Part shown: piece after piece, positions 2,367 to 5,741 of the stretch
How positions within the stretch are numbered: position 1 is the stretch's first letter
Layout: every line of letters begins with the position of its first letter
Source of the DNA: Oscillibacter valericigenes
GTDB taxonomy: Bacteria > Bacillota > Clostridia > Oscillospirales > Oscillospiraceae
Assembly (NCBI RefSeq): GCF_016902445.1
Contig: NZ_JACSNX010000001.1
Coordinates: 310,001 to 374,000 of the forward strand
DNA: 64,000 bases
Reading direction: 5' to 3'
The notes under the pieces: generated by a model
Seen by the model: only the letters and a program-made list of their open reading frames with translations
What the model was told of the DNA's origin: nothing
Databases searched by the model: none
Program-made: the position numbers and the translations under genes

Positions 2367-2525
2367 TTACTGTACCCGATAGCCACGCTCCACCGTGGCA
2401 AGTACATAATCCAACATACTCTCATGTGATGGGAATGTCTTTGGCTCCAAGCCTTCAACTTCATGAAAAGAGATGATCCGGTCAACCGAATCCTGCCAAC
2501 AAACGCAATTTGTATCTATCCTCAT
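2367..2525 (-). CDS. Small unknown protein (52 aa)
   Basis: ATG at 2525 overlaps the TGA of the upstream gene in an ATGA junction, and the TAA at 2367-2369 lies 13 nt before the next start. The translation begins [16 protein letters not shown] and ends ERGYRVQ, with ordinary soluble composition. Tight coupling on both sides supports it as a real cistron of the ImmA operon. Function unknown. Confidence 0.65.
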
Positions 2526-2818
2526 TCTTGGCACCTCAAAGGTATCTTCCGTTCCACAAACCAGCGGCCGATGATATTGCCAGTTAAATTGGCTGTCCTC
2601 TCAAAGTAAAGGAAGCGCCGCTGTCCACGCATCATGACAGTATAGCGATCCCCTTGCCCACCGGCTTTCGCCGCATATGACGGCCGGATGTCGAGGACTC
2701 GGTCTATTTCATATGTTATCCCATTCTCCCAGGTAAGCGCACGGGGCAGCATGACGCCATCCTCATTGAAATGGACGGAAACCGCCACATACGCTTTATA
2801 CTCCGCCCCCGCGTCCAT
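2522..2818 (-). CDS. Conserved small protein of ImmA/polymerase cluster
   Basis: 98 residues beginning MDAGAEYKAYVAVSVHFNED, predicted mostly beta-strand. I recognise it as a hypothetical protein recurrently found beside ImmA/IrrE and Y-family polymerase genes in clostridial mobile elements, but know no function. It starts 5 nt after the peptidase gene and its stop overlaps the start of the 52-residue gene, so translation is probably coupled. Confidence 0.75.
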   Translation of the reverse strand: MDAGAEYKAYVAVSVHFNEDGVMLPRALTWENGITYEIDRVLDIRPSYAAKAGGQGDRYTVMMRGQRRFLYFERTANLTGNIIGRWFVERKIPLRCQE

Positions 2819-2823
2819 GGCCT

Positions 2824-3363
2824 TCAGCAGAGCGGCTTGCTGATGTCTCGCCGCAGGAAATCAGACTGCGCAAGATATGGGGCCTGGAACCGGCCATCAC
2901 GCTTTTCAAGAAGCCGCAGTTTGAAGTCCAGCAGTTCCGGCGGGACATTCAGCGAACTGGCCACAGAGAAGAAGTCTGTATGGCTCTGGAGCGTGTCAAA
3001 CAAATCTGTGTCATCGACCAGGAACTCCGCTGCGAAAATATTGGCTTCCCGCTCCATAAAGTCTCTGTCATCCAGATAGGACAACTCGTGGAACGTGCGG
3101 ATCTTACTATCCACATGTAAGACACCATGCGCCAGCTCGTGGGCGAGGATGACCCGCTGCACCAGGTCTTCCAACTCGCTGTTGACCACGGCGATTTTAC
3201 ATCTGCTGTGGATCAGAAAGAAGCCCTTACATGACCCAGCATGACAGCCCATCGGTTGTCTGGAAACGCGGATTCCCATAGCCTCGCACAATTCCTCCGC
3301 ATCAGATGTCTTATATTTGCTCTTTAAGCGAGCGACTTCTCGCTTGATACTTTCTGCCCGCAT
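2824..3363 (-). CDS. ImmA/IrrE-family metallopeptidase
   Basis: 179 residues from ATG 3363, which has GAGGTG at good spacing. The HExxH zinc motif is in ILAHELAHGVLH, and further acidic residues in an EREANIFAAEFL stretch complete the IrrE/ImmA signature. Family members cleave or inactivate XRE repressors, for example ImmA on ImmR of ICEBs1 and IrrE on DdrO after DNA damage. The upstream gene of the same operon is an XRE regulator, which is the obvious substrate. Together with the divergent polymerase it forms a plausible LexA-independent damage switch. Confidence 0.9.
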   Translation of the reverse strand: MRAESIKREVARLKSKYKTSDAEELCEAMGIRVSRQPMGCHAGSCKGFFLIHSRCKIAVVNSELEDLVQRVILAHELAHGVLHVDSKIRTFHELSYLDDRDFMEREANIFAAEFLVDDTDLFDTLQSHTDFFSVASSLNVPPELLDFKLRLLEKRDGRFQAPYLAQSDFLRRDISKPLC

Positions 3364-3472
3364 CTCCATCACCTCGATTCAAAATAGAGCTGGGCTCCCT
3401 TTATATGCGTCATAGTAGCAATCCAGGAGTCCCATAATCCGTACTACATTTACCGGGCTGAATCGAGTATGA

Positions 3473-3910
3473 TCAATCGCGGTATTTTTTGGGCGTGAAT
3501 TTGTTGTGGGCATCTTCCTTACATGCCAGGTATGCCTGCATCACTGCCTGGAAGAACTGGTCCTTGTCCTCCTGGGGGACCTCGCCGCCGGCGAACATCG
3601 TCTTAACGCCGTCAAGAAGATCCTCCAGCTCACCGGCTCCTTTCTGGCCGTGCCTCATGCGCACGGCGTTGAGATAAGGTGCCTCATCCAGTCCATAGGA
3701 GGGGTCCTCCACATCAGGGCGGGAGAGATACGCTTCCGAAACGCCCAGCACTTCCGCAAGCTTATACAGGTTGCGGCCACGGGGGACCACAGTCTCTGTC
3801 TCATATTTCGATACTGTGCGGATGGTAAGCCCGGACTTCTCCGCCAGCTCCGCTTGGGTCAAATTCTTTCTGGCTCTGCTCTCCCGGATCTTCTCGCCAA
3901 TTGTCTTCAT
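3473..3910 (-). CDS. XRE-family repressor, likely ImmA target
   Basis: 145 residues from ATG 3910 with an AAAGAGGA ribosome site. The helix-turn-helix occupies about residues 5-60 (KNLTQAELAEKSGLTIRT then SKYETETVVPRG). The C-terminal 80 residues are helical and acidic. It heads the minus-strand operon and diverges from the Y-family polymerase. The shared region contains five TAGAACTT-type repeats that it may bind. Cleavage by the adjacent ImmA-like peptidase would relieve repression; this is inferred from the ImmR/ImmA and DdrO/IrrE systems. Confidence 0.85.
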   Translation of the reverse strand: MKTIGEKIRESRARKNLTQAELAEKSGLTIRTVSKYETETVVPRGRNLYKLAEVLGVSEAYLSRPDVEDPSYGLDEAPYLNAVRMRHGQKGAGELEDLLDGVKTMFAGGEVPQEDKDQFFQAVMQAYLACKEDAHNKFTPKKYRD

Positions 3911-3954
3911 AGCTTCATCCTCTTTCTGCAGGCAATAACGAGTCAATTTCTCAA

Positions 3955-4099
3955 AAGTTCTATTGACAGGGGCCGTCGTACCTGCTATTGTATGGATAGA
4001 ACTTTATAGAACTTACATGGAACGATGTAGAACTTGATTGCATTATAAATGGAAGTTTGCGCATTGTCAAGTAGAATGTGAAGGAATTTTATAGAACTT
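3955..4099. promoter_or_regulatory. Divergent promoters with phased TAGAACTT repeats
   Basis: Plus promoter: TTGACA (3963-3968), 17 nt, TATTGT (3986-3991). Minus promoter: TTGACA (4070-4065), 17 nt, TATAAT (4047-4042). TAGAACTT occurs at 3997-4004, 4007-4014, 4028-4035 and 4092-4099, with an inverted copy at 3955-3962. The first three are offset by 10 and 21 bp, i.e. on one face of the helix. They cover both predicted start points. This is a shared operator region for the repressor and the polymerase. Confidence 0.75.
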
Positions 4100-4127
4100 C
4101 CATCGAGCCGAAAGCGAGGGTAGGACT

Positions 4128-5372
4128 ATGTGCAATCGGGTTGTATTCCACAGCGACCTCAACAACTGCTATGCCAGTATTGAGTGTATGCTGCACCCGG
4201 AACTGAGAGGGACATATCTTGCTGTCTGCGGCAGTACAGAGGAGCGGCATGGGATCGTATTGGCGAAGAACCAGCTGGCCAAAAAATGCGGCGTCAAGAC
4301 GGGTGATGTCATTTGGGAGGCAAAGCAGAAGTGTCCGCAGCTGACCACTGTTCCGCCGCACATGGAGCAATATTTGAAATTCTCTAAAATCGTACGGGCA
4401 ATCTATCTGCGGTACTCTCCCGAAGTGGAGGCATTTGGGATCGATGAGAGCTGGATCGAGATGACCGGGTCCCCGCTGCTGGAGCATCGCTCCCCGGTCG
4501 ATGTAGCCAATGAGATCCGTGAAACGGTGAAGGCGGAGACAGGGCTCACGGTTTCCATCGGAGTCAGCTTCAATAAGATATTCGCCAAATTGGGCTCCGA
4601 TATGAAGAAGCCGGACGCTGTGACAGAGATCTGGGAAGACACATTCCGCGACCAGGTCTGGCCCCTCCCTGTATCGGATCTTCTCTACGTTGGCCGCGCC
4701 ACTACGGACAAGCTTGCCCGATATGGCATCCATACGATCGGCGCCTTGGCGAAAGCAGAACCGGAATTCCTGCAGCGGGTACTTGGGCGGAACGGCCTAA
4801 AGCTCTGGATCTACGCCAATGGCAAGGACACCTCGCGTGTGATGCCGTGCGATTATGAGCCGCCCGTCAAAAGCATCGGGCATGGGATCACCTGCACTGC
4901 GGATTTGGCCACAGAATATGAGGTGCGGCAAGTCCTGTTGGAACTCAGTCAAGAGGTCGGCAAGAAACTGCGCAAACATCATTTGGCCGCGACCGGCGTC
5001 CGTATCTATGTGCGGGACTGTACCCTGAACCATCGCGAATACCAAGCGCGGATGCCCTTCCCCACGCAGAGTTTTCTGGAATTGGCCGAGGCAGGCTCGA
5101 AGCTGTTTCATCGCAGGTATGGTTGGGACCACCCTGTCCGATCCCTCACCATCAGCGCGATCGACCTGGTACCGTCAGATACGCCTATCCAGCTGGATCT
5201 CTGGACAGACTTCGCCAGGCACAAAAGGAAATTGGATTTGGAGCGTACAGTAGAGGATATCCGCAGACGCTTTGGCATAAGGGCGATCAACTTTGCCTCC
5301 CTGGGTGACTCTTTGAAGATCCCATCCCACAGAGAAGTAGAATATAAAATGCCGGCTGTTATGTATCAGTGA
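4128..5372 (+). CDS. Y-family translesion DNA polymerase
   Basis: 414 residues. The N-terminal SDLNNCYASIE and the GIDESW segment supply the Asp and Asp-Glu that hold the catalytic metals in DinB/UmuC polymerases. The HhH/thumb and little-finger regions follow at about 165-380, so the protein is full length. It copies past damaged bases at the cost of mutations. Expression is probably controlled by the divergent XRE/ImmA pair through TAGAACTT repeats. A LexA/UmuD-fold-like gene follows 13 nt downstream, reminiscent of UmuC/UmuD partners, although that gene is frameshifted here. Confidence 0.92.
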   Translation: MCNRVVFHSDLNNCYASIECMLHPELRGTYLAVCGSTEERHGIVLAKNQLAKKCGVKTGDVIWEAKQKCPQLTTVPPHMEQYLKFSKIVRAIYLRYSPEVEAFGIDESWIEMTGSPLLEHRSPVDVANEIRETVKAETGLTVSIGVSFNKIFAKLGSDMKKPDAVTEIWEDTFRDQVWPLPVSDLLYVGRATTDKLARYGIHTIGALAKAEPEFLQRVLGRNGLKLWIYANGKDTSRVMPCDYEPPVKSIGHGITCTADLATEYEVRQVLLELSQEVGKKLRKHHLAATGVRIYVRDCTLNHREYQARMPFPTQSFLELAEAGSKLFHRRYGWDHPVRSLTISAIDLVPSDTPIQLDLWTDFARHKRKLDLERTVEDIRRRFGIRAINFASLGDSLKIPSHREVEYKMPAVMYQ

Positions 5373-5385
5373 GGAGTGAGAATCA

Positions 5386-5741
5386 ATGACAGATCATGTG
5401 AATTATGTAGGTCGGGTGGACCATCCTATTTTGATGGACGAGTCTGACCAGACAGTGATGATAAAGGGCTTCACCGGTCGGCTTGCCGGTGATGTTATGC
5501 TCTTTAACAGCTTTGGCCGGCACTATCTCGACTATGGGATCACAGACGGAAGCTTGCTGCTCTGTGCCATGGGATCGAGCCGCATGACGGCGACTTGGTC
5601 ATCAAGATGAATCAGGGCAAGCCGGCTGTCTATATCTTCCGGCTCGGCTCCACCGAGACTGCCGAGGGCTCCATGCGCGTGTTGGGAAATGCGGATGAGG
5701 CTGATTACGTGATCGTCAGTGCCTTTAACTTCTACCACTGA
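5386..5741 (+). pseudogene. Frameshifted LexA/UmuD-fold-like protein
   Basis: The first frame opens at ATG 5386 and stops at 5610. From about 5568 the reading continues in the frame one base earlier (GIEPHDGDLVIKMNQGKP) to TGA 5739-5741, so one base seems missing near 5560-5571. The joined protein of about 118 residues contains YGITDGSLLL then PHDGDLVI, the beta-layout of S24/LexA/UmuD domains. The catalytic Ser and Lys positions look replaced by His and Phe, so it would be a non-cleaving relative. It directly follows the Y-family polymerase. A sequencing error is possible. Confidence 0.6.

Follow-up and report, generated by a model that had tools for sequence, protein, structure and literature searches.

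The 64-kb stretch of DNA analysed here (the window; its contig has 457,740 bases and its genome 2.84 Mb) carries genes for an XRE-family repressor and an ImmA/IrrE-type metallopeptidase that diverge from the gene of a Y-family DNA polymerase. Judging from the sequence, we think it reasonably likely that these genes make up a two-protein repressor switch, which would be dedicated to the polymerase operon, relieved by the peptidase and independent of a LexA box.

Genes of the cassette

The original prediction, which covered positions 3473-5372, placed an XRE gene and an ImmA-like peptidase gene divergently from a Y-family polymerase gene. Pfam bore this out (HTH_3, Peptidase_M78 and IMS/IMS_C); the peptidase gene lies outside those positions. 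The genes are as follows.

2522..2818, minus strand: 98-aa ImuB-C-like protein (by family alignment), 5 bp behind the peptidase gene
2824..3372, minus strand: ImmA/IrrE-type metallopeptidase; Peptidase_M78, Pfam E 2.2e-15; HELAH motif in the translation
3473..3910, minus strand: XRE repressor, 145 aa; HTH_3, Pfam E 1.5e-15; the C-terminal part carries FAGG, a signature of the family
4128..5372, plus strand: Y-family DNA polymerase, DinB/Pol IV-like, 414 aa; IMS, E 5.6e-38; IMS_C, E 5.2e-19
5386..5740, plus strand: small S24/UmuD-like gene, directly 3' of the polymerase, frame-broken

The XRE, the M78 peptidase and the ImuB-C-like protein are probably encoded by a single operon, from which the polymerase diverges. 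The closest named locus is that of Pseudoflavonifractor capillosus An827, with an XRE identity of 98%. We observed that the predicted structure of the XRE protein (mean pLDDT 83.7, pTM 0.52) has five short helices followed by two long ones, and that its fold matches are mainly due to the HTH part. Its profile matched the DNA-binding domain of ImmR (7t8i, E 2.5e-11), and Pfam gave neither a LexA_DNA_bind nor an S24 family match for it. The peptidase matched IrrE chains weakly in sequence (E 0.07-0.11). Residues D10, D106 and E107 of the polymerase were invariant in an alignment of 24 polymerases.

The S24/UmuD-like gene has an identical frame break in one relative (L003) and is intact in two others (L041 and L042). 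With PF00717, the L042 copy scored 27.2 bits and the copies of L041 and L080 stayed under the cut-off; the matches of this neighbour to UmuD chains had E values of 0.26 or worse. It is followed by a weakly regulator-like gene, a sigma-like gene and then the gene of an actin-like partition protein. Genes for a YqaJ recombinase, a RecD2-type helicase, a CHC2 zinc-finger protein and RepA_N were found ~2-16 kb to the left of the window start, and these neighbours indicate that the locus resides in a mobile or plasmid-like element.

The 98-aa protein as a probable standalone ImuB-C

We compared the 98-aa protein with DUF6504 at the profile level (hhalign) and obtained a P of 1.2e-4 and a probability of 55. 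The DUF6504 model itself matched one of 19 members of the 98-aa family (E 0.09), and nothing in the window's genome. The gene neighbourhood fits ImuB-C, since the protein is encoded here with a DinB-type polymerase and a metallopeptidase, and its relative in L082 with a polymerase, DNA ligase and Ku. Published neighbourhoods join standalone ImuB-C with DinB and a zincin-like peptidase, and also with YqjH polymerases, mostly in Clostridia (PMC3765255, PMC6511836). From the profile comparison, and because its neighbourhoods resemble the published ones, we consider the 98-aa protein to be probably a standalone ImuB-C.

Searching the PDB with its predicted fold gave no match with E up to 0.001; the best hit of VIA-align (Z 4.8) was an artificial scaffold, which we took as uninformative. 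On the plasmid of an Oscillospiraceae isolate (L082, 6001-12000), genes for the polymerase, a relative of the 98-aa protein, a SIR2-family protein, DNA ligase and Ku are adjacent, and neither XRE nor peptidase was found near that polymerase.

Repeats and predicted promoters in the XRE-polymerase gap

The repeats and the promoters predicted by consensus scans are listed below.

3955..3962, minus strand: operator-like repeat O1, exact TAGAACTT; abuts the -35 box of the polymerase promoter
3963..3991, plus strand: predicted polymerase promoter, TTGACA-N17-TATTGT, 10/12 match; XRE side of the gap
3997..4004, plus strand: operator-like repeat O2, exact TAGAACTT; over the inferred polymerase start
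4007..4014, plus strand: operator-like repeat O3, exact TAGAACTT
4028..4035, plus strand: operator-like repeat O4, exact TAGAACTT; over the inferred XRE start
4070-4042, minus strand: predicted XRE promoter, TTGACA-N17-TATAAT, 12/12 match; polymerase side of the gap
4092..4099, plus strand: operator-like repeat O5, exact TAGAACTT; upstream of the -35 box of the XRE promoter

The five TAGAACTT-type repeats proposed originally proved to be exact, and all five copies present in the window fall in the gap. Shuffles of the window had 0.89 copies on average, and five copies were reached in 0 of 100 of them and in 0 of 300 shuffles of the gap. The proposed 10- and 21-bp phasing agrees with the steps 3997-4007-4028, and in the whole genome direct repeat pairs at most 30 bp apart occurred only in this gap (two matches, against 0 for the control). 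The transcription starts inferred from the -10 boxes, at ~3998 for the polymerase and ~4035 for XRE, are each overlapped by one copy, as had been suggested.

The promoters had been described as back-to-back, and this had to be corrected: the predicted pair is face-to-face, with the -35 boxes ~100 bp apart and convergent starts. Shuffles of the region contained 0.4 equally good promoter matches on average. It follows from this arrangement that each transcript would run across the opposite promoter.

The repeats also differ from a LexA box, as stated in the original prediction. The sequence GAAC-N4-GTTC was not found in the gap, where the best candidate had two mismatches.

Relatives in genomes

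In a search of 199 genomes, the XRE protein had matches in 188, mostly through its HTH. We kept the loci of the best 24 other matches (L012-L035, E up to 4e-13); a further match of equal rank, in G120, is outside this set. The polymerase is the divergent neighbour in 11 of these 24 loci (in two pieces in L017) and a relative of the 98-aa protein in four, and a peptidase gene follows XRE on the same strand in 23, while the XRE identities fall to ~30%. Conversely, 11 genomes had a polymerase match with E 1e-120 or better, and in eight of them an XRE gene lies divergently beside it; the three with no XRE beside their close polymerase are G089, G092 and G106. This comparison supports the reading that the XRE and ImmA/IrrE-type pair would control the polymerase without a LexA box.

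We observed that the best-scoring promoter pair was face-to-face in 22 of 22 loci of relatives, a set that includes near-identical members and four loci with the 98-aa partner; the span from -35 to -35 was 83-113 bp. The repeat in the gap varies by lineage (for example, ACGAAA-N4-TTTCGT, GTGAAA-N4-TTTCAC or AACTTCAT). Six of the 22 gaps had no 7- or 8-mer repeat above shuffles (p 0.05), and in four of these six a 6-mer also did no better than shuffles. Covariation between the recognition helix and the operator was not significant among 19 proteins retained after 70% clustering, with L083 left out (Mantel p 0.06 for the helix and 0.07 for the remaining protein; partial p 0.26).

Several loci depart from the common layout. 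In L083, XRE, the peptidase and the polymerase are all encoded on one strand, and the polymerase of L046 is in two pieces. In L047, L048, L050 and L054, the XRE-peptidase pair diverges from a 98-aa ImuB-C-like gene with no close polymerase beside it; recombinase-like genes come after this gene in L050.

Exchange of the repressor type in viral contigs

When the polymerase alignment was used to search viral contigs, 80 loci were obtained; 42 were counted, as their polymerase was close and sufficient DNA lay upstream of it. Of the 38 left out, six have <800 bp before the polymerase (L171, L188, L190, L191, L195 and L202) and 32 rank after L208 (all loci there except L229); the latter are mostly matches of <50% identity or truncated ones, the truncated matches above 50% identity being L221, L222, L224, L226 and L230-L236. 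L223, one of these 32, is also short upstream. Only L190 (partial), L195 and L223 among these 38 have a divergent XRE-family ORF.

A full-length XRE gene diverges from the polymerase in 26 of the 42 loci. Face-to-face promoters were found in all 26 (20 distinct gaps), a peptidase gene at most 300 bp behind XRE in 24 and a relative of the 98-aa protein in 24. In 12 other loci, the slot of XRE is taken by an HTH-S24 (LexA/HdiR-like) repressor ORF of 265-289 aa. S24 (PF00717) was found in nine of the nine ORFs scanned, and L165, L177 and L181 were assigned by eye from their sequences. SMEP is present in all 12 and SAG in nine of these repressors, which we take to be the usual marks of self-cleavage. 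The remaining four loci belong to neither class: in L196, L200 and L203 a relative of the 98-aa protein is beside the polymerase, and in L207 a WYL regulator.

The same scorer placed the promoters back-to-back in 11 of the 11 scorable HTH-S24 loci (the 49-bp gap of L206 was too short), with a score threshold for the face-to-face calls and none for the back-to-back calls, among which the polymerase promoter scored weakly in L194 and L177. This contrast under one scorer argues that the facing geometry is a property of XRE loci rather than an artefact of the scorer.

In a quickly built maximum-likelihood tree with 63 polymerases (42 with XRE, 13 with S24 and eight others), the repressor type changes four times, and three of these changes are forced by starred branches; shuffled labels gave 11.7 changes on average. 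From these few but forced changes, we conclude that XRE and S24 repressors were swapped at least three times on one polymerase.

These recurrences bear on the idea that the XRE protein and the peptidase are a toxin-antitoxin-like pair which lies beside the polymerase by chance. An HTH-Xre/zinc-metalloproteinase pair has indeed been described as toxin-antitoxin-like (PMC10538038), but the divergent placement and the same promoter geometry recur in phages, plasmids and chromosomes and the slot is also used by HTH-S24 repressors, so that we find this idea scarcely credible, the least so of those considered here.

Chromosomal copies, operator specificity and LexA

In three relatives (L055, L059 and L060), the cassette stands alone among genes that, named from their translations, appear to be housekeeping genes. 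The description of the switch as element-borne therefore holds for the window, with its RepA_N, YqaJ recombinase and actin-like partition genes, but not for these three chromosomal copies.

Exact operators occurred only at the cassette in six of six genomes of relatives, which argues for a single-target switch. Allowing up to one mismatch, G127, G151 and G169 had 6, 14 and 11 matches against 24, 21 and 19 for the backward control, and G123, G147 and G165 had 4, 4 and 5 against 1, 0 and 1, a small excess; in each of the six genomes, one of these matches lies at the cassette. We had also considered a LexA substitute with a wide regulon, and this was ruled out by the confinement of exact operators to the cassette in the six genomes.

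The genome of the window encodes LexA as a separate gene, with GAACAAATGTTT upstream of it. Host LexA might thus control the polymerase, leaving XRE and the peptidase to regulate only themselves. However, GAACAAATGTTT precedes the host lexA whereas the gap has no GAAC-N4-GTTC, the polymerase promoter is covered by the repeats, and the cassette is present in genomes without a LexA match; control by host LexA is therefore very improbable in our view. The independence from LexA that we propose instead is based on the gap without a LexA box and on the relatives where LexA was not found, the host itself having LexA.

Eight genomes of the chromosomal lineages carry the cassette. A search with PF01726 found nothing in seven of them (G127, G151, G169, G123, G147, G165 and G191), a result that leaves room for other S24 repressors, and gave in the eighth, G158, a partial match that exceeded the cut-off (26.9 bits). 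PF01726 matched in 148 of the 199 relatives. As the other 51 also have no match, and the eight genomes represent three genera only, a link between loss of LexA and the chromosomal cassette is at most suggestive.

In the window the polymerase comes first in a longer element operon, so that element induction may be the main role; most relatives are phages or elements. The locus would then be an ordinary ImmR/ImmA-style maintenance switch for lysogeny or transfer, with the polymerase as merely the first early gene. In gut phages that bear the label Ca. Heliusvirales (L077, L078 and L079), the cassette heads the early region, before recombination and replication genes; the sigma-like and partition genes 3' of the polymerase and the RepA_N and YqaJ genes to the left fit this reading as well, and prophages with ImmR/ImmA systems are known (PMC11318856). 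It accounts less well for the stand-alone copies in apparent housekeeping surroundings and for the ImuB-C-like gene, which is within the repressor operon in 24 of the 26 viral loci. We rate an element switch of this kind as rather unlikely; it is compatible with a dedicated polymerase switch. In a Monoglobus record (L081), the cassette adjoins predicted tetracycline-resistance genes and an integrase.

As a broader and more tentative form of the dedicated switch, we suggest that a conserved polymerase and its ImuB-C-like partner could carry exchangeable damage-sensing repressors, of two forms: a self-cleaving HTH-S24 protein with back-to-back promoters, or XRE together with a separate peptidase, where the promoters face each other and the operators change fast. 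The XRE form might have been domesticated on the chromosomes of Clostridia without detectable LexA as a dedicated single-target mutagenesis switch. We hold this possible, with slightly more doubt than confidence.

A possible mechanism

We infer XRE binding, cleavage, the damage signal, promoter interference and the role of the ImuB-C-like protein as follows. The XRE protein would bind the phased TAGAACTT repeats, shutting the polymerase promoter and tuning its own. Firing of one facing promoter would hinder the other, which, going by the geometry alone, may sharpen the switch. Upon a damage signal (for example, ssDNA or zinc release), the M78 peptidase would inactivate XRE and the polymerase would be made; the ImuB-C-like protein, whose gene follows that of the peptidase, is a candidate partner of the polymerase.

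By analogy, relief of the switch probably follows DNA damage. A damage signal is expected mainly because of the repeated swap with S24 repressors, the class of LexA, HdiR and UmuDAb, which are cleaved with RecA (PMC8565304). In pneumococcus, treatment with mitomycin C is followed by excision of ImmAR prophages, in one case independently of RecA, and ssDNA has been suggested as the signal (PMC12637031). DdrO is cut by IrrE, where zinc release is the proposed signal (PMC8072749). For two ImmR/ImmA prophages of C. clostridioforme, convergent promoters were predicted and interference was proposed (PMC11318856).

Comparison with known systems

The logic of the switch had been likened to ImmR/ImmA or DdrO/IrrE. 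ImmR/ImmA, of ICEBs1 and Firmicutes prophages, is the closest: it shares the operon of an XRE and an M78 peptidase gene, the divergent early operon and several repeats in the gap. Here, however, a Y-family polymerase is encoded first in the divergent operon, the repressor operon includes an ImuB-C-like gene, and the promoters are face-to-face, whereas those of ICEBs1 are described as divergent (PMC11318856). DdrO/IrrE of Deinococcus likewise combines an XRE repressor with an M78 peptidase and is independent of LexA (PMC8072749), but the likeness did not extend to its regulon of repair genes, as exact operators were confined to the cassette in the six genomes.

HdiR-umuC in Lactococcus and Streptococcus and UmuDAb in Acinetobacter also place an error-prone polymerase under a non-LexA repressor (PMC8565304). 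Both of these repressors belong to the S24 proteins and cleave themselves, whereas here the HTH and the peptidase are on two proteins, which are of another class. The neighbourhoods of Aravind 2013 and of Timinskas and Venclovas 2019 resemble ours in having ImuB-C with DinB and a DUF955 metallopeptidase; the accessible parts of these reports do not describe an XRE repressor, operators, promoter geometry or S24 exchange (PMC3765255, PMC6511836). In coliphage 186, as here, the early promoter and that of the repressor face each other, but the repressor is of another class, and interference in our system is deduced from geometry alone.

The single features have thus been published separately: control of error-prone polymerases by non-LexA repressors, switches of the XRE-M78 type, ImuB-C next to DinB and DUF955 peptidases, and convergent promoters in ImmR/ImmA prophages. 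Our search, which covered few subscription journals, did not find literature joining these features; what appears to be new is their combination, together with the interchangeability of the repressors and the chromosomal form with a single target. The proposed switch would be a concrete and testable case of LexA-free control of mutagenesis in gut Clostridia and their phages. As one polymerase occurs with two proteolytic repressors that are unrelated and differ in promoter geometry, nature offers a matched comparison between a one-protein self-cleaving design and a repressor plus protease. The stand-alone chromosomal copies allow one to ask whether bacteria lacking LexA retain inducible mutagenesis.

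Other genes of the window

Behind the XRE operon, on the same strand, is a gene for an IreB-family regulatory phosphoprotein (2129-2485, E 1.1e-24), which is present in L003 too. Positions 15900-45500 of the window contain a long series of polymorphic-toxin immunity-type genes. Imm68, Imm33, SUFU, DUF4253 and others are fused there in one frame of 1865 aa, and Imm-NTF2, DUF4241, DUF2262, NADAR and DKNYY proteins are also encoded in this region.
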